Shown here piece after piece: positions 19,203 through 32,180 of a stretch of 34,644 bases of DNA. The notes under the pieces were generated by a model. The model made no database searches, had not been told where the DNA came from, and saw nothing but the letters and a program-made list of their open reading frames with translations. Each line of letters opens with the position of its first letter. Positions within the stretch are counted from its first letter, which is position 1. Source of the DNA: Ignavibacteriota bacterium (GTDB taxonomy: Bacteria > Bacteroidota > Ignavibacteria > Kapaibacteriales > UBA2268); assembly GCA_024636855.1 (NCBI GenBank), contig JAGXGG010000061.1, positions 1 through 34,644 of the forward strand, in the 5' to 3' direction. The position numbers were made by a program, and so were the translations under genes.

Positions 19203-21191
19203 TTAAAATGCTACGTTTACACCGCCGTAGACCATCCTTCCTGGTGCCGATATACCTATTTTATCCTTTCTAGCTTGGTCTAGCAAGTTATTTGCCCGTA
19301 AGAATATTGTGTAAAAATTCTCATTATAAACAGTTTTATAGCTTAGTCTAAGATTGAACAATGTAGTGGCATCTATTGGCACCAAACCGCCTTCTAAATC
19401 TGATATTCCATATTGATTGCCTATTAGGTCAGCTTCTGCTAAGAAATCTATACCACCATATATTCTCCAATCGGCTTGTAGAAATGCTATTATCTCAGGT
19501 CTGTATTCTAGATTTTGTGTTATCCCGTCGACTGTGCCATTACTGTTCATATATGTAAAATGACCAGTCAAATCGAAATTATTCGCAACATAGTATTTCA
19601 CCAATACCTCAGCACCCATTATAGTTGCTTCATCTAAGTTTACTCTTTGCTTTCTATTTAGGCTATCGCCGGGTACTGTTTCTCTTGTGATTAGGTCATT
19701 GTAATTATTAGCAAATACTGACAGAGTTGCATCTAAATCTATTCCATGGTAATCTACTCCAACTTCAGATAGCAGACCTGATTCTGGTTTCAAATCTGGA
19801 TTAATAACAAATTTGCCCAATGCCGCAGAATATGATTCGCGAAGAGTGGGGAACCTGCTTTTCTTACCAAAGTTTATAAACAAATCAGTTGACTCATTCA
19901 GTCTATAAGTTGCACCCAATATACCTGCTATATCATCGAATGAGTTACCTTCAGCTTCTGTGAATACTCCAGCTTTACTAATATCAAATCTGTCATAAGA
20001 ACTACCAACTGTGAATACCCAATCACCAAGGAATCGCTTATACTCTAAGCCAAAACTACTAGTCATTTGTGAATATTCATTGATTACACTATTCCCTTGC
20101 AAATCATCTATTTCTTCGGTGTGTGTAGTGTTGAAGCCATTTATTGCAAAGTTCAACTTATCTTTCTCAGACAAGTCAGCACTGAAGTTGACTCTAATCC
20201 CAGTTGTTATATCTTCATCATATTGCTTCTCGTTCAATTCTTGGAAATCTATAGCTTTGTAGTCCTCTATAGTTTGGTCGAATTTATCTATCCATATAGC
20301 CCCTTTTACAGAGAGTATTTCAGATAATTTGAATTCACCATTCAAAGTTGCTATACTTCTTAACCACTCAGGGTATTTCCAAAACCGATTTGTTATTCCA
20401 TCAGGATAGTTCTCAGGAATAGCACCCTGCTGACCATCTATATGATTGAAAGAAGCTCCAATTTTATTCTCATCATCTATTTCATATTCACCACGCAGGT
20501 AAGCAGTGATTCTTTCGCTATAGCTGTTAGTGATAAGTACTTGTTCTTTGTCTAAATTAAAATCAAACTTATCATTTTTGGGTGCTTTTAGTCCATCTCG
20601 AGTTAGGAAAGATAGATTACCAATATAGTTGAATTTGCCATCTTTGCCTTCTAGCTTTACACTACTATACTTGCGCCCACCTTCACCCAATTGTAGACCA
20701 ACATTACCACCAATACCATCCTGATCACGTTCAGTTGTAGTGATATTAACAGCTCCACCCAATACATTAGCGCCGTATAGCACAGAGTTAGCTCCTGTAC
20801 TTATCTTCAAATTACCAATGATATCTGTAGGTATCATACTCAAATCGACTCTGTTGTCCCATGGTATATTAAAATACATACCATCGAAGAATAGTGCTAT
20901 TGACCTCTCACCTGCACCACGTAGATAAAGTAATGATTCTCCTCGAGAGTTAGTTTGTATAAAACCACCAGGTATTATTGCATTCAGGTCTTCCATATTG
21001 ACCGCATCTTGCTCCTTTATTTCGTGGTATTTTACTTCTTTGATTTTTGTTGGTTGGATTTTTTGTGAGCCTCTTGCTCCTTCTGTAACTATCTCACCGA
21101 GCTTATAGACTCTGATAGTATCTTTGTCTGTTTGTGATACAGCAACTGAAAATGCAAATAATAATAAAAATAGGACTAAAGCTTTTTTCAT
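19203..21191 (-). CDS. TonB-dependent outer-membrane receptor, possibly for a metal
   Basis: A 662-residue receptor. A signal peptide (FLLLFAFSVAVSQ) is followed by a short TonB-box region, the plug domain (about 50-150, with LLYLRGAGERSIALFFDG and GANSVLYGANVLGGAVNITT) and a beta-barrel that ends in the usual aromatic C-terminus (GRMVYGGVNVAF). There is no CarboxypepD-like extension. It is smaller than polysaccharide SusC proteins and fits the siderophore/metal/vitamin class. Its neighbours (azurin, thioredoxin, methyltransferase on the same strand) suggest copper or another metal, but I see no motif that decides the ligand. It starts 69 bp downstream of the ClC gene. Confidence 0.9.
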   Translation of the reverse strand: MKKALVLFLLLFAFSVAVSQTDKDTIRVYKLGEIVTEGARGSQKIQPTKIKEVKYHEIKEQDAVNMEDLNAIIPGGFIQTNSRGESLLYLRGAGERSIALFFDGMYFNIPWDNRVDLSMIPTDIIGNLKISTGANSVLYGANVLGGAVNITTTERDQDGIGGNVGLQLGEGGRKYSSVKLEGKDGKFNYIGNLSFLTRDGLKAPKNDKFDFNLDKEQVLITNSYSERITAYLRGEYEIDDENKIGASFNHIDGQQGAIPENYPDGITNRFWKYPEWLRSIATLNGEFKLSEILSVKGAIWIDKFDQTIEDYKAIDFQELNEKQYDEDITTGIRVNFSADLSEKDKLNFAINGFNTTHTEEIDDLQGNSVINEYSQMTSSFGLEYKRFLGDWVFTVGSSYDRFDISKAGVFTEAEGNSFDDIAGILGATYRLNESTDLFINFGKKSRFPTLRESYSAALGKFVINPDLKPESGLLSEVGVDYHGIDLDATLSVFANNYNDLITRETVPGDSLNRKQRVNLDEATIMGAEVLVKYYVANNFDLTGHFTYMNSNGTVDGITQNLEYRPEIIAFLQADWRIYGGIDFLAEADLIGNQYGISDLEGGLVPIDATTLFNLRLSYKTVYNENFYTIFLRANNLLDQARKDKIGISAPGRMVYGGVNVAF

Positions 21192-21260: not shown

Positions 21261-23111
21261 TTATTCGGAATATTCTTTTAGTAACATCCTGTACCGAGAT
21301 AATATTTTGGAGCGACTTATAAACCCGAGGAATTCTTTCTTTTCACTAACAAGTGGCAATTGCCATACATCAGACTCATCGAACATTTTTATAACATCTA
21401 CAATCCTATCTTTCATACTTATCTCAAAATTAGGACTAATTGTCAGTTCTGTTAGGTTTGCCTCTTCCGGAGGTCTGGCACCAAGTAAAAACGGACGCAG
21501 TTGCTCTCTATTCAATATACCCCAAAAACGATAGTTCTCATCAACCACTGCAAAAGTGTTTTGATTACTATTTCTGCACATATCTAATACTTTATGTATA
21601 TCCGAATTAGTTTGAATTACTTCACTTGCTTCGTTTATACATTCCATTATTTTTATTTGATTTAGTATATTTTGGTCATGACGAGTGGTGAATATTTTAC
21701 CTTCTGCTGCCAGTGTTTTTAATGTAGGGTTTATTGATGAGAAGAATTTATTAATCAAAAAGGCAATAACAGAGACTATCATCAGAGGGATAAACAAATC
21801 ATAACCCGAGCTAGATTCAGCAATCAAAAATATAGCAGTGAGAGGCGCATATAGCACACCGGACATTACTCCTGCCATCCCAACCAACATCAAATTGGCT
21901 ATAGGTACATCCACAACACCAACTATAGTTAGTATAAATCCAAATAGAAATCCTATCAACCCACCAGATATAAGAGAAGGAGCAAAGTTTCCTCCATTAC
22001 CTCCTGAATTTAGAGTAACGCTAGTAGCTACAGCTTTGAAAAGAAGCGTAAGTATTAGGAATCCAATAATTACTAAATCGGGTGAATTGAAGAAACTAAA
22101 TATTTCTTTGTGTATAAGATAATTGATATTACCTTGGTGGAGCATTTTTATATTCATATATCCCTCACCAAAAAGTGGAGGGAAAGCAACGCAAAGTACG
22201 GAGAGTATAACCCCTCCAATTACGGCCTTGGTGATAGGGCCACCCTTATATCTATCGAAGAAGGTCTTCACTTTTTCACTAACTACCAAGAAATAACGAG
22301 CATAGAACCCAGTTACTATACCTAAAGCAATATAGAGGAAAGTATTAGCATAATCGAAAGACTGTCGCGCAGTCAGAATAAATAAAATATCTTCTTGGAG
22401 CATAATACGAGAGAGTAAACTCCCACAAATAGCAGCTATCACGAGAGGAATAAAATCTGAAAAAACTAGACCTGTCAGTAGTATCTCAAAGGCAAACATA
22501 ACACCTGCTATAGGTGCATTAAATGCGGAGGCAATACCAGCGGCAGCCCCAGCAGCGAGGAGTAGTGTTCTTTCTTTGTAACCTAGTCTATACCTTTGCG
22601 CATAGTTAGAGCCAATAGCTGATCCAGTAATAGCTATCGGAGTTTCCAGACCTGCGGAACCACCGAACCCAACTGTAATAGCACTTTGTATAACCTGTGA
22701 GTGCATCTTCCTTGAATTGACTTTGCTCTCATTTTGGGCTATATCATTGAGTACGAATGATATTTCTTTCTTTTGGTCATTATCATAGAAGAATTTAACT
22801 ACTAACGCTGTGATAACTAAACCTGCAAAAGGAAAGACAGCATAAGCAATCATACGTTCATTAATAGGCAAATCATTATTGAGAAACTCTTGGATAGAAT
22901 GTACAAAAGTTTTAAGTACAACTCCCGCCAAACCTGCCGAGAAACCAACCAAAATACCAGAAAGGACTAGAAATTGGGAACGAGACAATCTACTTTTAAT
23001 CCAAAAAAGTAGTATTTCTACGATATTAAACTTTTGAAAAGGGTAATTGACAAACGCCCTTTTGAAGAGTAAAAAGTTAATATATAGTTTTTTTAATCCG
23101 AACTTTTTCAT
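21261..23111 (-). CDS. ClC-family chloride channel/antiporter with C-terminal CBS pair
   Basis: A 616-residue protein with ClC membrane domain (about 40-440) and two CBS domains (about 490-610). The anion-path motifs are GSAGLETPI (in place of the classical GREGP, with the gating Glu kept) and GGNFAPSLI, both typical of the Bacteroidota branch. Helices rich in Gly/Ala and a GVLYAPLTAIFLIAE stretch near the end of the domain complete the fold. It moves chloride, perhaps with proton exchange or with fluoride; which one is unclear. I chose ATG at 23111 over a TTG six codons upstream because the ATG has AGAAG just before it. It is transcribed divergently from the B12 operon. Confidence 0.92.
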   Translation of the reverse strand: MKKFGLKKLYINFLLFKRAFVNYPFQKFNIVEILLFWIKSRLSRSQFLVLSGILVGFSAGLAGVVLKTFVHSIQEFLNNDLPINERMIAYAVFPFAGLVITALVVKFFYDNDQKKEISFVLNDIAQNESKVNSRKMHSQVIQSAITVGFGGSAGLETPIAITGSAIGSNYAQRYRLGYKERTLLLAAGAAAGIASAFNAPIAGVMFAFEILLTGLVFSDFIPLVIAAICGSLLSRIMLQEDILFILTARQSFDYANTFLYIALGIVTGFYARYFLVVSEKVKTFFDRYKGGPITKAVIGGVILSVLCVAFPPLFGEGYMNIKMLHQGNINYLIHKEIFSFFNSPDLVIIGFLILTLLFKAVATSVTLNSGGNGGNFAPSLISGGLIGFLFGFILTIVGVVDVPIANLMLVGMAGVMSGVLYAPLTAIFLIAESSSGYDLFIPLMIVSVIAFLINKFFSSINPTLKTLAAEGKIFTTRHDQNILNQIKIMECINEASEVIQTNSDIHKVLDMCRNSNQNTFAVVDENYRFWGILNREQLRPFLLGARPPEEANLTELTISPNFEISMKDRIVDVIKMFDESDVWQLPLVSEKKEFLGFISRSKILSRYRMLLKEYSE

Positions 23112-23209
23112 GCTTCTAGAAAGACTCAATTTAGATGTGTTACAAAACTATGTTATTTTGAAGTCTATATCAAAATAGAACAACATATTTCAAATAAATA
23201 AAATACGAT

Positions 23210-23240: not shown

Positions 23241-23253
23241 AATAATTGAAATT

Positions 23254-23457
23254 TCAATGGTGTGTGGGAATTCCGTGTAATTCGGAAACGGTTCCGCCGC
23301 TGTAACAAGTTACGACCGTGTCAAGCAAAACTGCAGTCACTGCTATCACTAGTGGGAAGGCGACACGGAAGGTCTGATACTTGGAGTCAGAATACCAGCC
23401 ATTGATACTCATTGGTATATTCGTGAAAACGAATAGAACATCTGCGGACAACAGATG
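23254..23457 (+). promoter_or_regulatory. Cobalamin riboswitch
   Basis: The conserved core is easy to read: GTGTGGGAATTCCGTG, AATTCGGAAACGGTTCCGCC, GCTGTAAC, CACTAGTGGGAAGGCGACAC and AGTCAGAATACCAGCC (B12 box). P1 is closed by TCAATGG (23254-23260) and CCATTGA (23399-23405), 7 bp and perfect. A downstream hairpin CATCTG/CAGATG with loop CGGACAA (23439-23457) may be P13, whose loop could pair with the CCGCC of L5. It binds cobalamin and should switch off the genes downstream when B12 is plentiful. Confidence 0.92.
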
Positions 23458-23574
23458 CTTTGAGGTGAACCGCTTCTCGACTGGATTTCTCATCCATGAC
23501 TGTGCCTTTTACCTCTGCTAAGTGTTTATTACTTAGAAACTAAAACATATATTTAAAATTATTAGGAGTCAATT
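23458..23574 (+). promoter_or_regulatory. Riboswitch leader / expression platform and ribosome binding site
   Basis: No gene. A long-range pairing GAGGTGAA (23461-23468) with TTTTACCTC (23509-23517), an inner GGAT/ATCC hairpin, and a CTAAGT/ACTTAG hairpin (23519-23536) could form the switching platform. AGGAG at 23564-23568 lies 6 nt before the ATG and is an unusually clear ribosome site for this genome. No T-run follows a stem, so control at translation is more likely than by termination. Confidence 0.5.
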
Positions 23575-25902
23575 ATGAAAAAGTTAATACTAACTTTGAC
23601 ATTAATTCTGTGTGGATATGCTGTATCACAAGCATCTATCCTCACTAAGCAATCAGTAGAGCTAGCAGTAGGAAGCAACCCAGTAAGCATATTAGAAAAC
23701 CCAAATGACGGTATGATTCATATATTCTGTGCTGGTGTGGATGCCAACGATAATAACATATACGATGAAGGCGAAGACGAAAAGCCAAGTTGGTGGCAAT
23801 ACAACCCAACTGGTAGTAGTGTAGAACCGACTATGGTCATGGAATTTGACAATTACTTTGTTAGTCCGTTTAAGCCGAGTATTGGAACTGGTCTTATAAA
23901 CATTACTTTTAAAAGTGATAAAATGAACAATGAATTTGTCGGAGATACAAAATTTGAGGTTTATAGTATTGCAAATTTTAGCTTACTCTATGATGGTGTT
24001 GTAAGTCAATCTGAAGTATTGACAACAAATTATTATACTGGCTATGCCATAACACTAACTAGATTGAATGGCAAGGATTTATTATCTTATACTGATATAA
24101 CAACAAATGAAACTAATAGTGTTTCTGTGGATGGTGATATTATTGATTTCACTTTCGTTGATTTGAATAAAGATGGAATAGATGAAGTTGCAATTCTAGT
24201 TGATGGTGAAAGATTACAGTTATTTGAAACTAATGGTAACATTAGTAAAATAAGTGAAATTGAATTTGATGATAATACAGGAAATAATTCCACTATGGGT
24301 AATTTATATACTTATAAAGGTAATATTTATACTACTTACAAAGAGAGTCTTTGGTTTGCTGAAATTGAAGCAGATATTGAAGGAAATATTGAATTAAAAA
24401 ACTTTGCAATTCCATCACTAACAACATTAAATAATCCAACGACTTACTTACCACTAAGTGATAAAATAAGTGTAATAACTAATGAAAATAATGATTTAAT
24501 AATCCATAGTGATTTTAATTATGGTACCGTTGAGTATCATAGGACATCTACCTCTACTGATAGAGTTAGCCTTATTGGAAGTAATCTATATGTTACAGGA
24601 AAGGGCAAGGTATATATTTATGATTTTAAAAATTCAGTGATTCAAGAGCCAAGTTATATTACTGAAGATTATTTTGATTACCAACCACTAGATATTTTAC
24701 CTTTTGAAGATAATTTTTATACCATCAATTTAGGTGTTGATTTTAATTATGATGGAACAATAGATGAAGTAAAAGGAGACCAAAAACCTTCTATTTATAG
24801 TTTTACATTACGAGGGAATGGTACACCTTTTGAAAACCCTACTAGGGAAATAAATTTTGACTTCCCATTAAACTACCCACTATACACAAACATTTCATCA
24901 GATGGCGATATACCATTACCTTCGGGTAACATGGTGCATTTCTATAATGTAACAGATAACGAAGTATATGATACTTTTGATGCTGAAAAATATGTTGCTT
25001 CTGTAAATAGTATATTTACTTATCTAGTTATGGGTCTTCGTGACTATGAAACTGGTAAGAGCTATATCAGAATTAGAAAAGACGACCAAAGAGACTTTAG
25101 TGTTGAAGTAGGTACTAATGTTGCTGATTTCATAGTTTACGGTAAAGGTAATGGTTTCAATGTGCTTTCAGTTTCAGAAGGTAACTTTGGTCAACCTGAT
25201 GCTAAAATTAGTTTAGTTGAATCGAATATAATGACTGGGAAAATAACAACTACCGAATTCGATGCTGGTACTACAGGTAGTGCTGTAGTAGCTAATAGTG
25301 ATAATTCTAAAGCAGCAATAGTGATGAACGGAAGCCACGAGATTCATATTTTTGATATGAACACAAATGAGATTATACTAACTTTCTCGACTGGAACGAC
25401 AGGCTATGGCGGACCAAGAGATGCTAAGTTCCAAGGTGATAAGCTTTATGTTTCTACTTATAGTAACAAGATTCTAATGTTTGATTCTAATACTGGTACT
25501 CAACTTTCTTCCATTTTAATTGATGGAAATAGTGAGGGGCTTGCTTTAGCTGGCAACTATTTACTAGCAACAAATATCCAATATAGTAACTATCAACCAA
25601 GTAATAGAGTTTTTGCTTATGACCTTGATAGAATATCAAGTGTAGAAGGGACTACTCCTACTCAACAAACAATCCGAGTTTACCCACACCCTGTTTCTAA
25701 TGACTTTCACTTAGTGTCAGATGATTTGGCTGGTACTAATGACATAGCAATCATTAACAATCAAGGTAAGATAGTTGCTACATATATTGGCAGCTCGAAC
25801 GGTGCAATAGCTCTAAACGCTGATGCTCTTGGATTAGTATCTGGTAACTACACAGCTGTTATAAACGGAACTAGAGCTGTTAGATTTGTTGTGATAAAGT
25901 AA
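23575..25902 (+). CDS. T9SS-secreted protein A of the B12 operon, candidate corrinoid-binding surface protein
   Basis: A 775-residue secreted protein, first gene behind the cobalamin riboswitch. A signal peptide (TLTLILCGYAVSQA) is followed by a beta-rich body without Cys clusters. Two similar segments carry calcium-loop-like sequences: D56-ANDNNIYDE followed by EKPSWW, and D389-FNYDGTIDE followed by QKPSIY. Each follows a hydrophobic strand, so the body seems built from two related halves, possibly propeller-like. The last about 80 residues (IRVYPHPVSNDFHL ... GNYTAVINGTRAVRFVVIK) are a type A T9SS sorting domain, so it is exported and probably anchored on the surface. It has a close paralogue 31 bp downstream. 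Function in B12 capture is inferred from the riboswitch and the neighbours; no family name is known to me. Confidence 0.85.
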   Translation: MKKLILTLTLILCGYAVSQASILTKQSVELAVGSNPVSILENPNDGMIHIFCAGVDANDNNIYDEGEDEKPSWWQYNPTGSSVEPTMVMEFDNYFVSPFKPSIGTGLINITFKSDKMNNEFVGDTKFEVYSIANFSLLYDGVVSQSEVLTTNYYTGYAITLTRLNGKDLLSYTDITTNETNSVSVDGDIIDFTFVDLNKDGIDEVAILVDGERLQLFETNGNISKISEIEFDDNTGNNSTMGNLYTYKGNIYTTYKESLWFAEIEADIEGNIELKNFAIPSLTTLNNPTTYLPLSDKISVITNENNDLIIHSDFNYGTVEYHRTSTSTDRVSLIGSNLYVTGKGKVYIYDFKNSVIQEPSYITEDYFDYQPLDILPFEDNFYTINLGVDFNYDGTIDEVKGDQKPSIYSFTLRGNGTPFENPTREINFDFPLNYPLYTNISSDGDIPLPSGNMVHFYNVTDNEVYDTFDAEKYVASVNSIFTYLVMGLRDYETGKSYIRIRKDDQRDFSVEVGTNVADFIVYGKGNGFNVLSVSEGNFGQPDAKISLVESNIMTGKITTTEFDAGTTGSAVVANSDNSKAAIVMNGSHEIHIFDMNTNEIILTFSTGTTGYGGPRDAKFQGDKLYVSTYSNKILMFDSNTGTQLSSILIDGNSEGLALAGNYLLATNIQYSNYQPSNRVFAYDLDRISSVEGTTPTQQTIRVYPHPVSNDFHLVSDDLAGTNDIAIINNQGKIVATYIGSSNGAIALNADALGLVSGNYTAVINGTRAVRFVVIK

Positions 25903-25933
25903 AAATATAAAATAATAATTATTGAGGAACCTC

Positions 25934-28330
25934 ATGAAAAAACTTAATTTATTAATAATTCTGCTACTGTGCGGATACGCTGTATCACAAGCATCTATCC
26001 TCACTAAACAATCAGTAGAGCTAACAGTAGGTAGCAACCCAGTAAGCATATTAGAAAACCCAAGCGATGGAATGATACATATATTCTGTGCTGGTGTGGA
26101 TGCCAACGACAATAACGTTTATGACGAAGGCGAAGATGAAAAACCAAGTTGGTGGACGTATAATCCAGCAGGTAGTAGCGTAGAACCAACAAAGATAAAT
26201 GAGTTTGACAACTACTTTGTTAGTCCGTTTAAGCCGACTGTTGATACTATCAAGGGATATTCGACAGTAATTCTACCATTCGCTGCATCAAAAACTGATG
26301 GTGAGTTCACTGGGAATGGATTTGTACAGGGGTTTCAAATGAAAAGTACAGCTCCTGCATTCAAAGTTGAAGTTACAAATGGCGAGTATCTATATTACGA
26401 AAGACAATTAGCAAATACTATCAGTGTTATTAGAGTAAATGGCAATGATTCACTTATTGTTAAGAATGATCTTAATAATCAAGTAGATGCTTTTGAGTTA
26501 AAAGGGGATGTGATTGAATATGTCACTTTCTTCGATGAAGATGATAGTCAGTATTTCGCTCCACTTTATTTTGATGGAGATAGCTCAAGCGTTGCGGTTT
26601 ACGAGCTTGATAAAGATTTGAATATCGAATTTTTATTTGAAAATGATAAAAGCATATGGTATTTAAATAAAGATTCAATTTCAAGTTACACAACTGACGG
26701 TAAAAAAATATATGCTTCAACTCATACAAGCTTATTTGTCCTTATGTTAGAGATTAATCCTGAAAAAGATGGATTCAAGACATGGCCACAATACGTTGGT
26801 TACGAAAGTGGAAGAATCAATAACTATGTGATAGGAATAAAAGATGATGTTCATTTAATTAGCACTTCTGAAAGGGATCTAATAGCAATTAATTTGGGCT
26901 ATAATGTCCCACATCCAATTAACGAGATGCATCATTCTCAATTTGAAATTGGATATATTCAATTCATTGGGAATCAAGTTTATTGTGCAAGCTCATTTAG
27001 CAATGATATAAATGGAGGGAGAATTTCTATTTACGATTTGACTAATGAATCAAATCAAGATCAAGCAATAGCTGGTCAAGAATATGTAGGCTATCAACCA
27101 GTTGCCTTGTTTGATCTTGGTACTCACCCCAGAGAAAATTTATATACTTTAGCTATTGGTATTGATTACAATTCCGATGGGATTATTAATGAAAAGGAAG
27201 GTGATATACCAGCGACCCTTAGTACTAATTTCTTTGTTGGAACATTTGAAAAATGGGATTCTGTGAAAGAATTTTATTTCCCATTAAATTACCCAGTTAA
27301 TAGTAATATCAGTAATAATGGTGATATCATTTTGCCATCTGGCAACATAGCGTATATTTATAATGTAGAAGCCCAAAACCTTGTTGATTCATTAGTTACT
27401 GATATGTATGTCGCTTGTGCCTTTAGTGGGTTCAAATATTCACCTTTAGAATATAAATTCTTAGGTTTGCGTGATTATGAATCGGGTAAAAGCTATATCA
27501 AAATCTATAAGGAAGATATAATTGACGTAAATACTGAAGTAGGAGCAAATGTAGTTGATGTAAAAGTTTACCAAAACGCTTCTGGTCCTAGTATTATCTC
27601 ACTTTCAGAGGGTAACTTTGGTACTTCAGACTCTAAAATTAACTTAATAAAATTAAGTGGATTAGAAATAACTGATAACTTAGAAATAGTAGTAGGAGAA
27701 GGTGGTAATTCGATAGAAATTGATAGCTCCCAAACAAGAGCAGCTGTAGTAATGAACGGGAGTCACGAAATTCATATTCTTAATTTACTTACTGGCGAGA
27801 TAGACTTGACTTTCTCGACTGGTACAACTGGATATGGTGGACCAAGAGAAGCTGCATTTAATAATGATAAATTATTTGTTACTACATACAGCAACCAGAT
27901 AATGATGTTTGATTCCAATACTGGTGAAAAATTATCCTCAATAAACATAGACGGAAACTCTGAAGGACTTTTAATAGAAAGAAATTATTTAGTTGTTGCG
28001 AATAATCAATATAGCAACTACGAAGCAAGTAACAGAATTTTCATGTATTACTTGGACAAAATCACGGGCGTTGAAGAGACAACTCCGACTCAGCAAACAA
28101 TCAGAGTTTACCCGCATCCTGTTTCTAATGATTTCCACTTAGTGTCAGATGATTTGGCTGGGACTAATGATGTAGCAATCATTAATAGTCAAGGTAAGAT
28201 AGTAGCTACTTATAGTGGCAGCTCAAACGGTGCAATAGCTCTAAACGCTGATGCTCTTGGATTAATATCAGGTAACTACACTGCCGTGATAAATGGCACT
28301 AGAGCAGTTAGATTTGTTGTGATAAAGTGA
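25934..28330 (+). CDS. T9SS-secreted protein B of the B12 operon, paralogue of the preceding gene
   Basis: A 798-residue secreted protein. The first about 90 residues (signal peptide, GSNPVSILENP, D56-ANDNNVYDE, EKPSWW) and the last 80 (VYPHPVSNDFHL sorting domain) are nearly identical to those of the preceding protein, also at DNA level. The middle has clearly diverged, although scattered blocks (LNYPVNSNIS, SEGNFGTSDSKI, STGTTGYGGPREA, SIDIDGNSEG-like) are kept. A second calcium-loop-like segment (DYNSDGIINE) is weaker than in the paralogue. I chose ATG at 25934 over TTG at 25922 because GAGGA lies 5 nt before it. The stop overlaps the GTG start of the next gene (GTGA), so they are translationally coupled. 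Role as in the preceding gene, inferred. Confidence 0.85.
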   Translation: MKKLNLLIILLLCGYAVSQASILTKQSVELTVGSNPVSILENPSDGMIHIFCAGVDANDNNVYDEGEDEKPSWWTYNPAGSSVEPTKINEFDNYFVSPFKPTVDTIKGYSTVILPFAASKTDGEFTGNGFVQGFQMKSTAPAFKVEVTNGEYLYYERQLANTISVIRVNGNDSLIVKNDLNNQVDAFELKGDVIEYVTFFDEDDSQYFAPLYFDGDSSSVAVYELDKDLNIEFLFENDKSIWYLNKDSISSYTTDGKKIYASTHTSLFVLMLEINPEKDGFKTWPQYVGYESGRINNYVIGIKDDVHLISTSERDLIAINLGYNVPHPINEMHHSQFEIGYIQFIGNQVYCASSFSNDINGGRISIYDLTNESNQDQAIAGQEYVGYQPVALFDLGTHPRENLYTLAIGIDYNSDGIINEKEGDIPATLSTNFFVGTFEKWDSVKEFYFPLNYPVNSNISNNGDIILPSGNIAYIYNVEAQNLVDSLVTDMYVACAFSGFKYSPLEYKFLGLRDYESGKSYIKIYKEDIIDVNTEVGANVVDVKVYQNASGPSIISLSEGNFGTSDSKINLIKLSGLEITDNLEIVVGEGGNSIEIDSSQTRAAVVMNGSHEIHILNLLTGEIDLTFSTGTTGYGGPREAAFNNDKLFVTTYSNQIMMFDSNTGEKLSSINIDGNSEGLLIERNYLVVANNQYSNYEASNRIFMYYLDKITGVEETTPTQQTIRVYPHPVSNDFHLVSDDLAGTNDVAIINSQGKIVATYSGSSNGAIALNADALGLISGNYTAVINGTRAVRFVVIK

Positions 28331-30237
28331 TAAAATTACTCGGATATATAGTTGTTTTCTTGATAGCTTTTGGATTCTTGTATTCTGAAACTGATTCGGT
28401 AGCAAAACGCTTCCCAGAGGTGACAATCGAAGCCAAAAATGAGCTAACAAACCAAGGATTCAACTATATATCCAGTCAATTAATTGATAGCAAAACCATA
28501 GCTAGAATCAATCCTATACTAGTCAGCGATGTACTGCAATATGCCGCAGGTGTGAACATTCGTGACTATGGGGGACTTAGCTCTATCAAAACGGTTTCAC
28601 TTAGAGGTATGCCCTCTAACCAAACGCTTATACTAATGGATGGTCTTCGTGTCACAAACTCACAGACAGGTATAGCAGATGTTAGTAAGCTTTTTATTAG
28701 CTCTGTTGATAGAATCGAAGTTGCCAAAGGCGGTGCTTCATCGCAATACGGTAGTAACGCTATGGCTGGGGTTGTGAATATGATTAGCAAAACCGAGTTA
28801 TTTGATGAATACAGATTAACAGCTAGTTACGATAGCTTTACTAATCGAATATTGGAGGCTGATATTACTCAGAATATAGATTCCTTTCCATTTACTTTGA
28901 AACTACGAAAGACAGATTCGGAGGGTACTTACAGTTTCCGTATCGGCGACAATGACTACGAAAGACAGAACAGCCAAGTCGATAATATTGATCTATATTT
29001 GGGTACTGTTTTGGGGTGGGGGAATTTTAATATAAAGCCAAGAGTTATACTTCGCAGTTCCGAGCGAGGGAACCCAGAGCCGTTGATAGCTGGAGTACAG
29101 AGACCGAGTAATGCTTTCCTAAAAGAATCAGATATGACAGCTATTGTCTCAGCAGATAATTACATAAATGATAGCACGGTTTTCAAGATTGGTGCAGTCT
29201 ATAATTACAGTGATTTGCAATTCAAAAATGAACAAGCTATCGAGTTCGGTGCAGGTGGACTGGACAATGATTTTTATAATAACGCTATGCAAATCAGATC
29301 GGAATATGCTACCAAATATAAGAACCTTCGCTACGGTTTTGTAGCAGATGGAACTCTCAATAAGCTCGCAGGAGATATGCTGCAAGATGTGAATGAGGAC
29401 ATAGCCCGTAACGATATTGGCATCTCTGCTAATATGAATTACACTAAGAAAAGCGTAGTAATTGAGTACGGATTTTACAGTAGTTTTAGAGCAGATTATA
29501 GTTCTGATTTCTCAGGTAATTATTCGCCTATGATTGGTGCTTCAGCAAGAGTAGTCCAAGCAAATTTGGTTACAAAAGCATCACTGAGCACTGGCTATCG
29601 TTTGCCATCCTTCAATGAAATGTATTACCTTAACTATGGTAATCAGGATCTTCGACCAGAGCGGTCAATTACTTACAATTTGGGGTTTGATTATGACCCA
29701 CCGAAGTTTGGGAAATTTGGAGTCAATTTATTCTACACAAATACTCGTGACCAAATCGCCGCAGTACCTACTGGGCCTATCACTTGGCAATCGCAGAATA
29801 TCGACAAAGTCAATTCACAAGGGATTGAGTTTTTTAGTATTCTGACTCCAATTGAGGGACTGAACATAGTATATAATTACATATACCAGCAGCCGCTAAT
29901 CAAGTCAGGTGTTGGGGAAGATGAGAGAGTGTTACTTCCCTATACCCCAGAGGAGATAGTGTCAGCTCTCGTTACTTATGATTTTAGTGATGTTCAAGTT
30001 GGTTCTTCACTGCAACATAAGAGCTATATATTCACAACTATCGACAATGACATGGGTCTTATAATCGAAGATTATACGCTACTCGATGTATTCGCTTCTT
30101 ATAAATTGGATGTATTTGCTAATAAGCTATTAATCAGGTTAGATGTACAGAATCTACTAGACGAACAGTATCAAGTTTTTTTAAATTACCCTATGCCGGG
30201 TCGTAATATCCGAGGAACAATCAGCTATGAAATATAG
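28327..30237 (+). CDS. btuB: BtuB-like TonB-dependent cobalamin receptor
   Basis: A 636-residue outer-membrane receptor behind a cobalamin riboswitch. A signal peptide (IVVFLIAFGFLYS) is followed by a short TonB-box region, the plug domain (about 45-150, with LQYAAGVNIRDYG, SLRGMPSNQTLILMDG, SSQYGSNAMAGVVNMIS) and a 22-strand-type barrel with a C-terminal GRNIRGTISYEI. The size and plug motifs fit the vitamin B12 group (BtuB) and not SusC. The role is import of corrinoids into the periplasm with TonB energy. The start is GTG at 28327, overlapping the upstream stop by 4 bp. Downstream the next gene overlaps by 11 bp. Identification of the ligand rests on the riboswitch and gene context. Confidence 0.88.
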   Translation: MIKLLGYIVVFLIAFGFLYSETDSVAKRFPEVTIEAKNELTNQGFNYISSQLIDSKTIARINPILVSDVLQYAAGVNIRDYGGLSSIKTVSLRGMPSNQTLILMDGLRVTNSQTGIADVSKLFISSVDRIEVAKGGASSQYGSNAMAGVVNMISKTELFDEYRLTASYDSFTNRILEADITQNIDSFPFTLKLRKTDSEGTYSFRIGDNDYERQNSQVDNIDLYLGTVLGWGNFNIKPRVILRSSERGNPEPLIAGVQRPSNAFLKESDMTAIVSADNYINDSTVFKIGAVYNYSDLQFKNEQAIEFGAGGLDNDFYNNAMQIRSEYATKYKNLRYGFVADGTLNKLAGDMLQDVNEDIARNDIGISANMNYTKKSVVIEYGFYSSFRADYSSDFSGNYSPMIGASARVVQANLVTKASLSTGYRLPSFNEMYYLNYGNQDLRPERSITYNLGFDYDPPKFGKFGVNLFYTNTRDQIAAVPTGPITWQSQNIDKVNSQGIEFFSILTPIEGLNIVYNYIYQQPLIKSGVGEDERVLLPYTPEEIVSALVTYDFSDVQVGSSLQHKSYIFTTIDNDMGLIIEDYTLLDVFASYKLDVFANKLLIRLDVQNLLDEQYQVFLNYPMPGRNIRGTISYEI

Positions 30238-31090
30238 CATTTTAATATTTATGATGGCTGCGAATTTGTATTCGCAAGATTGTATTACTATCAATCACGT
30301 ATTCTCATTCACTCCTGGAGTGGGTCAAAAACTTGGTCAGAGTGAAGAATTCTACCCTGCTAATATATTTGGGATACCGTCTCGCATAGCTAGTGAGGAC
30401 GTTGCAGAGGCAACTGAAAGCGAAGTCCTTTCTCTTGGCTTTGGTGGCGAGATAATAGTCGGCAACTCAGATAATCTGATAATAGATGGCGATGGAGCCG
30501 ATTTCACTATCTTCGAAAATGTATTCAAGAACCCTATTAATGGTCGTCTATTCAAAGAACCGGCAATAGTTTCAGTAAGCAAAGACGGTATTAGTTATAC
30601 CGAATTCCCTTATGTGTTTGCCTCTCTTGAGGGCTGTGCAGGGACTCACCCTACTTATGGTGCTGCCGATTATTGCGATTCTGATGTGAGTGGTGGCGAC
30701 AGTTTTGATTTGGCTGATTTAGGATTAGACTCAATTCGATATATTAAAATCAAAGACATTACTGACCAAGTCTTTGCAAATCAGAATCACAAATACTTCG
30801 ATTACTCACTTAGTGGCTTCGACTTAGATGCATTGGTAATACATAACTTTGTGGTAGACGTAATGTCATCTGTAGAATCTGATATATCCGAGTTTTATAC
30901 TCTTAGTTCTGATGAAATAACAAGCTATAATGCGAGTAACTCAATTCAGATTTATAATATAAATGGTATATTGGTATCTGAGTATTCGGGCATTGGTTTA
31001 TTCCAATTTCGAGAATTACAGAACGGAATTTATATAATGAAAATTAGTAATAGCAAGGGAACTGCAATTGAGAAGATCATTAATCTATAG
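30227..31090 (+). CDS. Secreted protein with T9SS-type C-terminus, B12 operon
   Basis: A 287-residue exported protein, starting inside the end of the receptor gene (11-bp overlap). A short signal peptide (ILIFMMAANLYSQ) precedes a domain rich in Gly, Asp and Phe with SLGFGGEIIVGNSDNL, GDGADFTIFENVF, SVSKDGISYTEFPY and a pair of Cys (GCAGTHP and YCDSD), which resembles secreted beta-sandwich domains found next to BtuB in other Bacteroidota. The end (IYNINGILVSEYSG ... NGIYIMKISN) is a T9SS sorting domain. I cannot name the domain; it could bind corrinoid or scaffold the receptor. The following gene overlaps its end by 23 bp. Confidence 0.75.
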   Translation: MKYSILIFMMAANLYSQDCITINHVFSFTPGVGQKLGQSEEFYPANIFGIPSRIASEDVAEATESEVLSLGFGGEIIVGNSDNLIIDGDGADFTIFENVFKNPINGRLFKEPAIVSVSKDGISYTEFPYVFASLEGCAGTHPTYGAADYCDSDVSGGDSFDLADLGLDSIRYIKIKDITDQVFANQNHKYFDYSLSGFDLDALVIHNFVVDVMSSVESDISEFYTLSSDEITSYNASNSIQIYNINGILVSEYSGIGLFQFRELQNGIYIMKISNSKGTAIEKIINL

Positions 31091-32180
31091 CATATTTTAC
31101 AGCATATTATTATCATTGCTTTTCATCGGGTGTGTGGAAACCCCTAACACTCCAACTGGTGAAGCGAAGCTATACGACACTCTCGCTACTCCATTCCCAG
31201 AGTCAGGAATAATAGTGCTTTGCGAGGGATTGTGGAACTACAATAACTCTGATATCTATGTACATGATAATATGACTGGAAAAACGTTAAATTCGTATTT
31301 CAAAACTGCGACTGGTGAATATCTTGGAGATATAGTCTCGGATATGAGAGTACTCGAAAATGGCAGAATAATATTCACAGCAACAGGCACGAAACAGCTG
31401 ATATTACTCGGCTACAAAGTGCCAGCTATCACAAGCAAAATCGACATCACTTACGACAGAGCAGCGCCGCGCTCGCTAACCACTATCGGCAATAGATACT
31501 ATTACACCGATTTATATAGAGACGAAGTTAGAAGCGGAACAATCAGCGACACACTTTCACCACCAAATCAAGTCTTTCCAACAGGCCCAGCACCAGAAGA
31601 TATAATAGCACACAATGGCAAACTGTACATAGCCAATTCGGGTTTCGGTGACTATCGGCAAAAAGAAAAGAACGCTGGTACACTTCAAATACTAGACCCC
31701 ACAACGGGTACAAGCGAGTACATATACATAGGTCCCAATCTAGTCCAAATAGCAATTAACCGAACAGAGAACTATATAGCTTGTGGATACCTAAACACTC
31801 CATCGCAAGTTGTAAAAGGAGAGTTGGGAGGAATAAAGTTTGTTGATTTATCGACTAATAATATACTCAGAGAAATGCCCCTCAAAGATTTTTCGGATGT
31901 AGTGCTAAACGAAAGTACAGGAGCAATTTATTACCTGGCTGAAGGTGGGCTATATGTATTCCCACATATAAACAGCAGAGCAATACCGCAGCTAATATAC
32001 GAGAACACTACCAAAGACGTGTGGCCTTCGCTATCCATAGACGACGCTAATGGTGAGTTATGGATAGGAAATGCCCGCAATTTCCAACGCGACGGTGAAG
32101 TAATAGTAGTTAGACCAGACGGCACTATCCTCCACAAGATACAGGTCGGCAAGAATCCACGGAAGGTGGTGGGGTATTAG
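31068..32180 (+). CDS. btuG: YncE/BtuG-like beta-propeller lipoprotein
   Basis: A 370-residue lipoprotein; signal LLSLLFIGC gives a lipid-anchored Cys near residue 22. The mature part has repeated beta-propeller blades: GIIVLCEGLWNYNNSDIYVHD, MRVLENGRIIFTATGTKQL, GNRYYYTDLYRDEV, APEDIIAHNGKLYIANSG, PNLVQIAINRTENYIACGY, WPSLSIDDANGELWIGNA and GTILHKIQVGKNPRKVVGY. This is the fold of BtuG, a very tight surface B12-binding protein paired with BtuB in Bacteroides. Position as the last gene of a riboswitch operon with a BtuB-like receptor supports that role, although specificity is inferred. The start is TTG at 31068, overlapping the preceding gene; no ATG is nearby. Short copies of its 3' end lie downstream (33240 and 34063). 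Confidence 0.82.
   Translation: MRRSLIYSIFYSILLSLLFIGCVETPNTPTGEAKLYDTLATPFPESGIIVLCEGLWNYNNSDIYVHDNMTGKTLNSYFKTATGEYLGDIVSDMRVLENGRIIFTATGTKQLILLGYKVPAITSKIDITYDRAAPRSLTTIGNRYYYTDLYRDEVRSGTISDTLSPPNQVFPTGPAPEDIIAHNGKLYIANSGFGDYRQKEKNAGTLQILDPTTGTSEYIYIGPNLVQIAINRTENYIACGYLNTPSQVVKGELGGIKFVDLSTNNILREMPLKDFSDVVLNESTGAIYYLAEGGLYVFPHINSRAIPQLIYENTTKDVWPSLSIDDANGELWIGNARNFQRDGEVIVVRPDGTILHKIQVGKNPRKVVGY

Follow-up and report, generated by a model that had tools for sequence, protein, structure and literature searches.

We find that a cobalamin riboswitch in an Ignavibacteriota genome is followed directly by two genes whose products, P0001 and P0002, each carry a propeller that, by profile comparison, is homologous to BtuG but circularly permuted, and each end in a sorting-like tail of the type IX secretion system (T9SS). 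The stretch analysed, hereafter the window, comprises positions 1 to 34,644 of contig JAGXGG010000061.1 (assembly GCA_024636855.1). We give a probability of about 0.72 to the reading that P0001 and P0002 are B12-repressed, T9SS-delivered corrinoid-capture proteins serving BtuB, in an operon for B12 scarcity. A sequence-only reading of the window had taken them for a possible new class of surface corrinoid proteins; corrinoid capture indeed appears to be the best fit, but the proteins are not unrelated to BtuG, their propeller being of a permuted BtuG type.

The features that carry the argument are:

23241-23417, + strand: cobalamin riboswitch aptamer (RF00174), 80.1 bits, full model 1-189
23418-23574, + strand: leader of 157 bases from the aptamer to the first start codon, with several predicted hairpins
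23575-25902, + strand: P0001, first T9SS-tailed double-propeller protein, 775 residues, from the open reading frame (ORF) and a structure model
23656-24645, + strand: predicted propeller 1 of P0001, residues ~28-357, which keeps the opening D-x-N...PSWW module and lacks BtuG-like core motifs
24646-25632, + strand: propeller 2 of P0001, residues ~358-686, which aligns with seven-bladed propellers and keeps the EGxFG, NGSH, GPRD and TYS motifs
25165-25644, + strand: half of propeller 2 of P0001 (residues 531-690), equivalent in profile comparison to the first half of BtuG (region of blades 1-4)
25666-25899, + strand: T9SS type A sorting-like tail of P0001, from residue ~698
25934-28330, + strand: P0002, second T9SS-tailed double-propeller protein, 798 residues, from the ORF, paralogy and the family profile
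27086-28075, + strand: propeller 2 of P0002, residues 385-714, with core motifs, 180.4 bits to the family profile
28106-28327, + strand: T9SS type A sorting-like tail of P0002

The relation to BtuG is visible at the level of the family. Searched against solved structures as a single sequence, P0001 returns nothing at E <= 1, and only a family profile built from 26 single-propeller members (A6) reaches BtuG. With A6, BtuG structures lead the solved proteins, BtuG1 (PDB 8blw chain B) at E 8.1e-22, and the alignment runs in swapped order, A6 187-344 matching BtuG1 47-212 and A6 22-184 matching BtuG1 218-374. The second of these pieces is weak alone, with independent E values (i-E) of 0.066, 0.73 and 0.94 in the three best chains and 0.0024 in 8bmy (BtuG2), and its placement is constant across BtuG chains. 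When the halves of A6 are compared as profiles with the halves of 13 BtuG homologues from the same genomes, the second half of A6 pairs with the first half of BtuG at a probability of 99.6% (1.3e-23, 143 columns) and the first half of A6 with the second half of BtuG at 93.1% (3.3e-7, 146 columns), against 52.5% (1.4e-4, 26 columns) and 31.0% (5.2e-4, 92 columns) for the unswapped pairs. Likewise, rotation of A6 extends its alignment with BtuG from 143 to 302 columns and takes it from 1.9e-20 to 5.5e-27. By these profile comparisons the propeller of P0001 and P0002 is homologous to BtuG and circularly permuted. It is a homologous seven-bladed propeller whose blade order is not colinear with that of BtuG; because of the swapped order, P0001 and P0002 are not filed as BtuG proper.

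The half that aligns with the ligand-contacting blades of BtuG is the better conserved one. Blades 1-4 of BtuG2 supply all 13 of its hydrogen bonds to cyanocobalamin, through residues described as highly conserved (PMC10404256). Across the 26 diverse members, 20 of 162 columns are conserved at 80% or more in the half equivalent to the first half of BtuG, versus 7 of 157 in the other half, and the mean majority frequency is 0.44 versus 0.39; as far as the alignment can tell, the half matching the corrinoid-contacting blades of BtuG is thus the better conserved half. Residues E208, G209, G240, N244, N259, S261, P288, R289, E328 and Y355 of A6 row 1 are identical in BtuG1. In the doubled proteins one propeller usually scores better than the other. 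Among the 13 doubles scored, the higher score belongs to the C-terminal propeller in all six from the window's genus and in G021, and to the N-terminal one in G028, G029, G044, G045 and G046, and both score high in locus L087 (290.5 and 231.5 bits). In each of the 13, two or more of the four motif patterns survive in the better-scoring propeller. The sole motif of propeller 1 in P0001 and P0002 is the opening DANDNN.YDEGEDEKPSWW module. The body of propeller 1 shows 18-23% identity between the two paralogue types in the window's genus (30-51% and 60-71% within types); tails in the genus are 83-95% identical. Propeller 1, without core motifs, probably acts as a spacer or a partner surface.

Could both propellers be no more than surfaces of this kind? 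In such a view the proteins are B12-regulated surface components that aid BtuB and BtuG as a scaffold, cap or adhesin and bind no corrinoid themselves, their BtuG-like half being inherited and degenerate. The loss of core motifs and the fast divergence of propeller 1 in the window's genus would suit this view, as would the presence of a canonical BtuG lipoprotein, P0005, in the same operon and the fact that just two of the four motif patterns are seen even in the better propeller of G044, G045 and G046. Nevertheless we consider it unlikely, given that motif patterns survive in the better propeller of every double scored and that twenty columns of the BtuG-like half hold at 80% or more across such diverse members.

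The AlphaFold model of P0001, computed with 37 sequences, is almost all beta, with a mean predicted local distance difference test (pLDDT) of 84.2 and a predicted template modelling score (pTM) of 0.69. It appears to consist of two tandem propellers (~28-357 and ~358-686) and, after them, a small beta domain. Foldseek aligns most of the model with tandem-propeller proteins, WD-type tandem and other propellers ranking first, and VIA-align puts residues 357-686 on seven-bladed propellers (YncE, Z 29.9, root-mean-square deviation 2.8, 287 aligned); BtuG is not among the best 50 rows of either list. The structure searches would thus indicate tandem propellers, the second of them seven-bladed, and nothing further. 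Of the structure prediction and BtuG comparison that the sequence-only reading had called for, the former yielded tandem propellers, but the homology to BtuG came from profiles. In a Pfam and NCBIfam scan, the propellers of P0001 and P0002 pass no cut-off.

The link to the riboswitch recurs in other genomes. In the class (294 genomes), at least 55 genomes have, among the matches listed, a full-length permuted match, chosen as a match running from position <=30 to position >=340; these are 50 of the 62 order-level genomes listed and five others, all of family f13, the other listed matches being a BtuG-like stretch, a tail or a fragment. Of these 55 genomes, 51 have a riboswitch, and in every one of the 51 it is immediately followed, on the same strand, by the permuted gene, with ~47-305 bases to the start of the match. 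The four without one are all of genus g23, and a second riboswitch occurs elsewhere in five of the 55. In the host family, 41 of 54 genomes hold a total of 42 riboswitches, and the first gene behind them encodes a permuted propeller in 33 cases and BtuB or BtuG in nine; of these 33 first genes, several run off a contig end, and the one in G014 (L068) was assigned from a weak N-terminal match (E 2.8e-5). In a phylum sample of 395 genomes, 30 match at E <= 1e-25, namely 28 in the order, one in f13 and one (G125) with a BtuG-like stretch only. A further set of 42 named loci, which overlaps with the genome counts and of which 33 entered, with the window, an alignment (A5), has an upstream riboswitch in 36 by a nucleotide profile (nhmmer); seven of these hits are partial (47-61 bases) and all seven pass the covariance model, L103 marginally (32.7 against 31.5). 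In G090, G100, G109, G117, G143 and G188, the BtuB, P0004-type and BtuG genes (BtuB-P4-BtuG) lie elsewhere without a riboswitch hit, and the riboswitch precedes the permuted gene. The linkage of riboswitch and propeller is a lineage-level trait, not a local accident. The first place in the operon, remarked on in the sequence-only reading, is conserved across the order, and a survey that might have found the homologues mostly away from riboswitches found the opposite.

The second shared property is the tail. The T9SS type A model TIGR04183 (curated cut-off 23) matches P0001 at residues 702-772 with 21.2 bits and P0002 at 725-795 with 22.1 bits. Among the 37 family members scanned, it matches 23 at E <= 0.01, and the Pfam T9SS tail model matches 18. 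The N termini of P0001 and P0002 look by eye like ordinary signal peptides and lack the lipobox cysteine. The host genome, in which T9SS machinery was searched as SprA and the sortase, encodes both, SprA at 769.8 bits and a PorU-type sortase at 807.8 bits (cut-off 420). The T9SS-type tails proposed from the sequence alone find support, with scores slightly under the cut-off in the window's pair and over it in relatives. In other genera the typical relative has one propeller and ~420-530 residues, doubling being found in the window's genus. Two relatives, L036 (357 residues) and L038 (367 residues), end after the propeller, start with a lipobox-like SAC and have no tail. Judging by these sequences, at least two relatives are lipoproteins and the anchor has been exchanged in nature, so that one propeller scaffold would be carried by two kinds of anchor, T9SS tail and lipid. 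Delivery by T9SS, as a solution different from that of lipoproteins, would describe most members, but not these two. The lipobox pattern also flagged L080, L099 and L109, whose C-terminal regions are of usual length.

Several loci consist of the riboswitch and the propeller gene as a stand-alone unit. In two of them, L079 (9327-9896) and L101 (2176-2739), a CobC-like alpha-ribazole phosphatase, an enzyme of cobalamin nucleotide-loop assembly, directly follows the propeller gene; the two ORFs tested score 156.9 and 145.2 bits against a cut-off of 162.9. ORFs of 188-190 residues occupy the same position in L089, L094, L097 and L104. In several metagenome-assembled genomes (MAGs) an ORF of ~1058-1085 residues follows the stand-alone riboswitch-propeller gene, and its copy in L080 (8798-11971) is a sortilin/BNR-repeat protein. 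Second cobalamin riboswitches lie at G117:C3:130201, G243:C1:10850 and G216:C12:2291 (L157, L158 and L159), with no BtuB match downstream within the stretches fetched; near that of G216 is a 317-residue ORF with a P4 match (E 7e-19), and near the other two are ORFs of ~780 residues.

A variant compatible with corrinoid capture is that of a cobalophore, a T9SS-released protein that collects corrinoid away from the cell and docks on BtuB or BtuG. Against release, two members are lipoproteins and a T9SS type A substrate may remain attached at the surface, whereas the tail in place of a lipid anchor and the stand-alone riboswitch-gene units speak for it; by analogy, vesicles of B. theta have been proposed to act siderophore-like for cobamides (PMC12751083). 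We regard release in this form as quite unlikely. A broader form, rather unlikely too, would extend it across the order: the main and sometimes only riboswitch-controlled product would be a permuted BtuG propeller put outside by T9SS and loosely held or released, and in the window's genus doubled, one propeller holding the corrinoid and the fast-evolving other docking on BtuB or excluding competitors. Surface B12 capture would in that case have been adapted to a second export route through a shift of the propeller's chain ends. PorZ also combines tandem propellers with a T9SS tail, and PorZ (PDB 5m11) stands at rank 36 in the Foldseek list for P0001, but a T9SS accessory component of this type, concerned with surface attachment and not with nutrition, is very improbable, given that PorZ is absent from the best 60 of 72 solved sequences for A6, which BtuG leads at 8e-22, that most relatives have a single propeller, and that the genomic context differs, with a riboswitch in 51 of 55 genomes.

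In the reading that we prefer, T9SS-delivered corrinoid capture serving BtuB, low corrinoid would let the riboswitch permit expression of the operon, as its match to the covariance model suggests. T9SS would then export P0001, P0002 and P0004 over the outer membrane, to be surface-tied or released, in keeping with their tails and the T9SS genes of the host. The conserved C-terminal propeller of P0001 and P0002 would capture corrinoid, as models and family knowledge suggest. The ligand may be handed directly, or via the BtuG lipoprotein and the BtuH-like P0004, to the BtuB-like P0003 for TonB-dependent entry, a step we propose because of the BtuB-BtuG biology of Bacteroides (PMC10404256).

Several points weigh against this reading. 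The tails of P0001 and P0002 score slightly below the NCBIfam cut-off, and a Pfam scan of the two proteins gives no tail match. The correspondence with BtuG is by half and region, contact residues not being mapped individually. A cruder permutation test, in which single hidden Markov models (HMMs) were run against the 13 BtuG homologues, separated the rotations mildly and partly in the contrary sense: the mean best-domain score was 52.7 bits for the rotation of interest versus 45.7 unrotated, with other cut points from 28.0 to 52.3, and the rotation rot1 had the higher mean full score (60.5 versus 58.5). By structure the phase of the propeller is ambiguous, the P0001 model aligning end to end with many unpermuted propellers, and since structural alignment does not fix the phase of a pseudo-symmetric ring, the evidence for permutation is that of the sequence profiles. 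No riboswitch was detected in five of five g23 genomes, although the gene precedes btuB there, and six of the 42 named loci have none by nhmmer or the covariance model; four of the six belong to g23 relatives, and L108 is a locus whose gene is truncated at the start of the contig. Several loci have the gene by itself after the riboswitch, and the twenty neighbour proteins scanned are mostly not B12 proteins but sortilin/BNR, PAP2, RodA-like, spermidine synthase, arginase and others; one of the twenty, a histidine phosphatase, is the CobC-like kind. Being encoded with btuB is true at the window, not of all relatives. Finally, support for binding, export and regulation comes, in all members, from sequence and models.

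How does such a protein compare with known systems? With BtuG (BT1954 and relatives; PDB 3dsm, 8bmy and 8blw chain B), the P0001/P0002 family shares the seven-bladed propeller, the strong alignment of the half equivalent to the first half of BtuG, and a place behind cobalamin riboswitches with btuB. Unlike BtuG it is circularly permuted, opens with a D-x-N-x-[DN]-G...PSW module and is often doubled; in most members a T9SS tail replaces the lipid anchor, it comes first in the operon, and an ordinary BtuG coexists with it. BtuJ/DUF4465 proteins, which have an augmented jelly roll fold, are described as accessory B12-binding proteins of riboswitch-regulated loci (PMC13398666, PMC12751083), more than 70% of that family being lipoproteins and the others having periplasmic signals (PMC13398666); the window's operon differs from them, P0001-P0005 giving no DUF4465 match in Pfam at E <= 1. 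Within the open-access literature searched, we found no report of T9SS-borne B12-binding proteins or of a permuted BtuG. The known surface B12-capture proteins of Bacteroidota, as our sources describe them, are lipoproteins studied in gut Bacteroides, DUF4465 proteins having been studied more widely; in this largely uncultured order, T9SS substrates with a permuted BtuG scaffold appear to do this work, and among the genomes tested theirs is the gene that most often comes immediately after the cobalamin riboswitch. Corrinoid capture is a likely annotation for the family, whose propeller stays below every Pfam and NCBIfam cut-off in P0001 and P0002, and it points to B12 scavenging in these genomes. 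The natural pairs (T9SS-tailed and lipid-anchored, single and double, permuted and colinear) suit the study of how anchor and topology affect hand-over to BtuB.

Behind the riboswitch the genes run P0001 to P0005 in one direction, with little or no intergenic spacing. The sequence-only reading was correct as to the riboswitch, the 775- and 798-residue proteins, the BtuB-like receptor and the BtuG-like lipoprotein, but it overlooked the T9SS-tailed P0004 between receptor and BtuG, and the riboswitch, which it had begun at 23254, starts 13 bases earlier. The aptamer is the single RF00174 match in the window and in the whole genome (gathering score 31.5, E 2.2e-18 by the covariance model). A scan of the leader for intrinsic terminators finds none on the + strand, from which we guess that control is translational. 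The mechanical ORF list starts P0002 at an upstream TTG, giving 802 residues; the 798-residue start is used here. The remaining genes are:

28327-30237, + strand: P0003, BtuB-like TonB-dependent receptor, by domain-model matches
30227-31090, + strand: P0004, T9SS-tailed BtuH-like protein, by TIGR04183 tail and family profile
31068-32180, + strand: P0005, BtuG-type lipoprotein, colinear with solved BtuG, by structure-sequence match and lipobox

The best NCBIfam model for P0003 is the B12 receptor TIGR01779, at 149 bits under the equivalog cut-off of 599.7. P0005 is, by sequence, an ordinary BtuG: its best solved match, 8blw chain B (BtuB1G1; PMC10404256), is colinear (query 11-368 to chain 16-372, E 2.6e-13), and its lipobox cysteine is invariant in 13 aligned homologues. 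P0004 has a TIGR04183 tail of 28.9 bits, above the cut-off, and its Pfam scan gives the T9SS tail only and no PKD/Ig domain. Without the tail, its family profile reaches the part of BtuG1 beyond the propeller (8blw_B 394-497, ~100 residues, E 1.3e-5), where BtuG1 has a fused BtuH domain (PMC10404256), and more weakly BtuH2 (7biz 259-342, E 0.096; PMC8941943), and P0004 shares with the BtuH-type domain the motif GGxIxVGF..DF...NAF..EP. In BtuH2, Asn399 binds the B12 phosphate and Phe401 touches the base (PMC8941943); with a chain offset of 100 from the construct, we infer that the two residues correspond to Asn and Phe in GNAFD. In P0004 the aligned positions are Asn98, which all 15 aligned members share, and Phe100, which nearly all of them share. 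Unlike BtuH, which is a lipoprotein with N-terminal PKD/Ig domains, P0004 is shorter, lacks these domains and has a T9SS tail; we call it BtuH-like, not BtuH, for its sequence resemblance. Its structure model is poor (mean pLDDT 47.1). At E <= 1e-15, 37 of the 395 genomes of the phylum sample contain the P0004 family, including 10 that do not belong to the class. The NCBIfam LIC_13355 family lipoprotein model matches 15 of 15 members at E <= 0.01 (P0004 itself at 27.4, cut-off 120), and the LIC_13355 family may, by this match, also be BtuH-like.

The host is a Kapabacteria/Ignavibacteria-type MAG of 3.1 Mb in 110 contigs, the window being contig 106, and a search of it with P0001 gives two matches, P0001 and P0002. 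It encodes the B12-dependent methylmalonyl-CoA mutase and an IcmF-like mutase, and no CbiC was found in it, which suggests that it must scavenge corrinoids; one missing marker is no proof. The 42 named loci, from a scan of genome contigs, are labelled as Kapabacteria/Kapaibacterium MAGs (17), Ignavibacteria/Ignavibacteriae MAGs (13) or more broadly (12, one of them a Bradyrhizobiaceae label that we take as a mislabelled MAG). The closest, 69% identical over the C-terminal half, are from Ignavibacteriae bacterium HGW-Ignavibacteriae-4 and HKST-UBA125.

P0001 and P0002 are paralogues, 48% identical over 810 columns, with near-identity in the first ~100 and last ~100 residues. The first 105 residues (23575-23889 and 25934-26248) are 85% identical between them, and those of P0001 are 64-66% identical to likely orthologues in sister genomes G041 and G042; four-fold sites agree at 27 of 31 positions at this 5' end versus 35 of 68 in the middle (Fisher p 0.0007), and comparison of the P0001 5' end with the G041 and G042 orthologues gives p 0.10 and 0.0014. 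To judge from these sites, the 5' end looks like a product of gene conversion. G041 (L033, 7275-14456) has three tandem copies with mosaic-looking propellers, two of the copies sharing 94-97% in part of propeller 2 and 10-35% in propeller 1. In sister genomes a 142-residue ORF lies between the propeller genes and btuB (L072, 14051-14476; L032, 9389-9814). A Pfam scan of the L072 copy gives no match; in the window, where the propeller gene and btuB overlap, there is no room for it. Divergently upstream, on the - strand, 19203-21191 and 21261-23129 encode a second TonB-dependent receptor and a channel of the ClC type that bears a CBS domain, a pair retained in two sister genomes.

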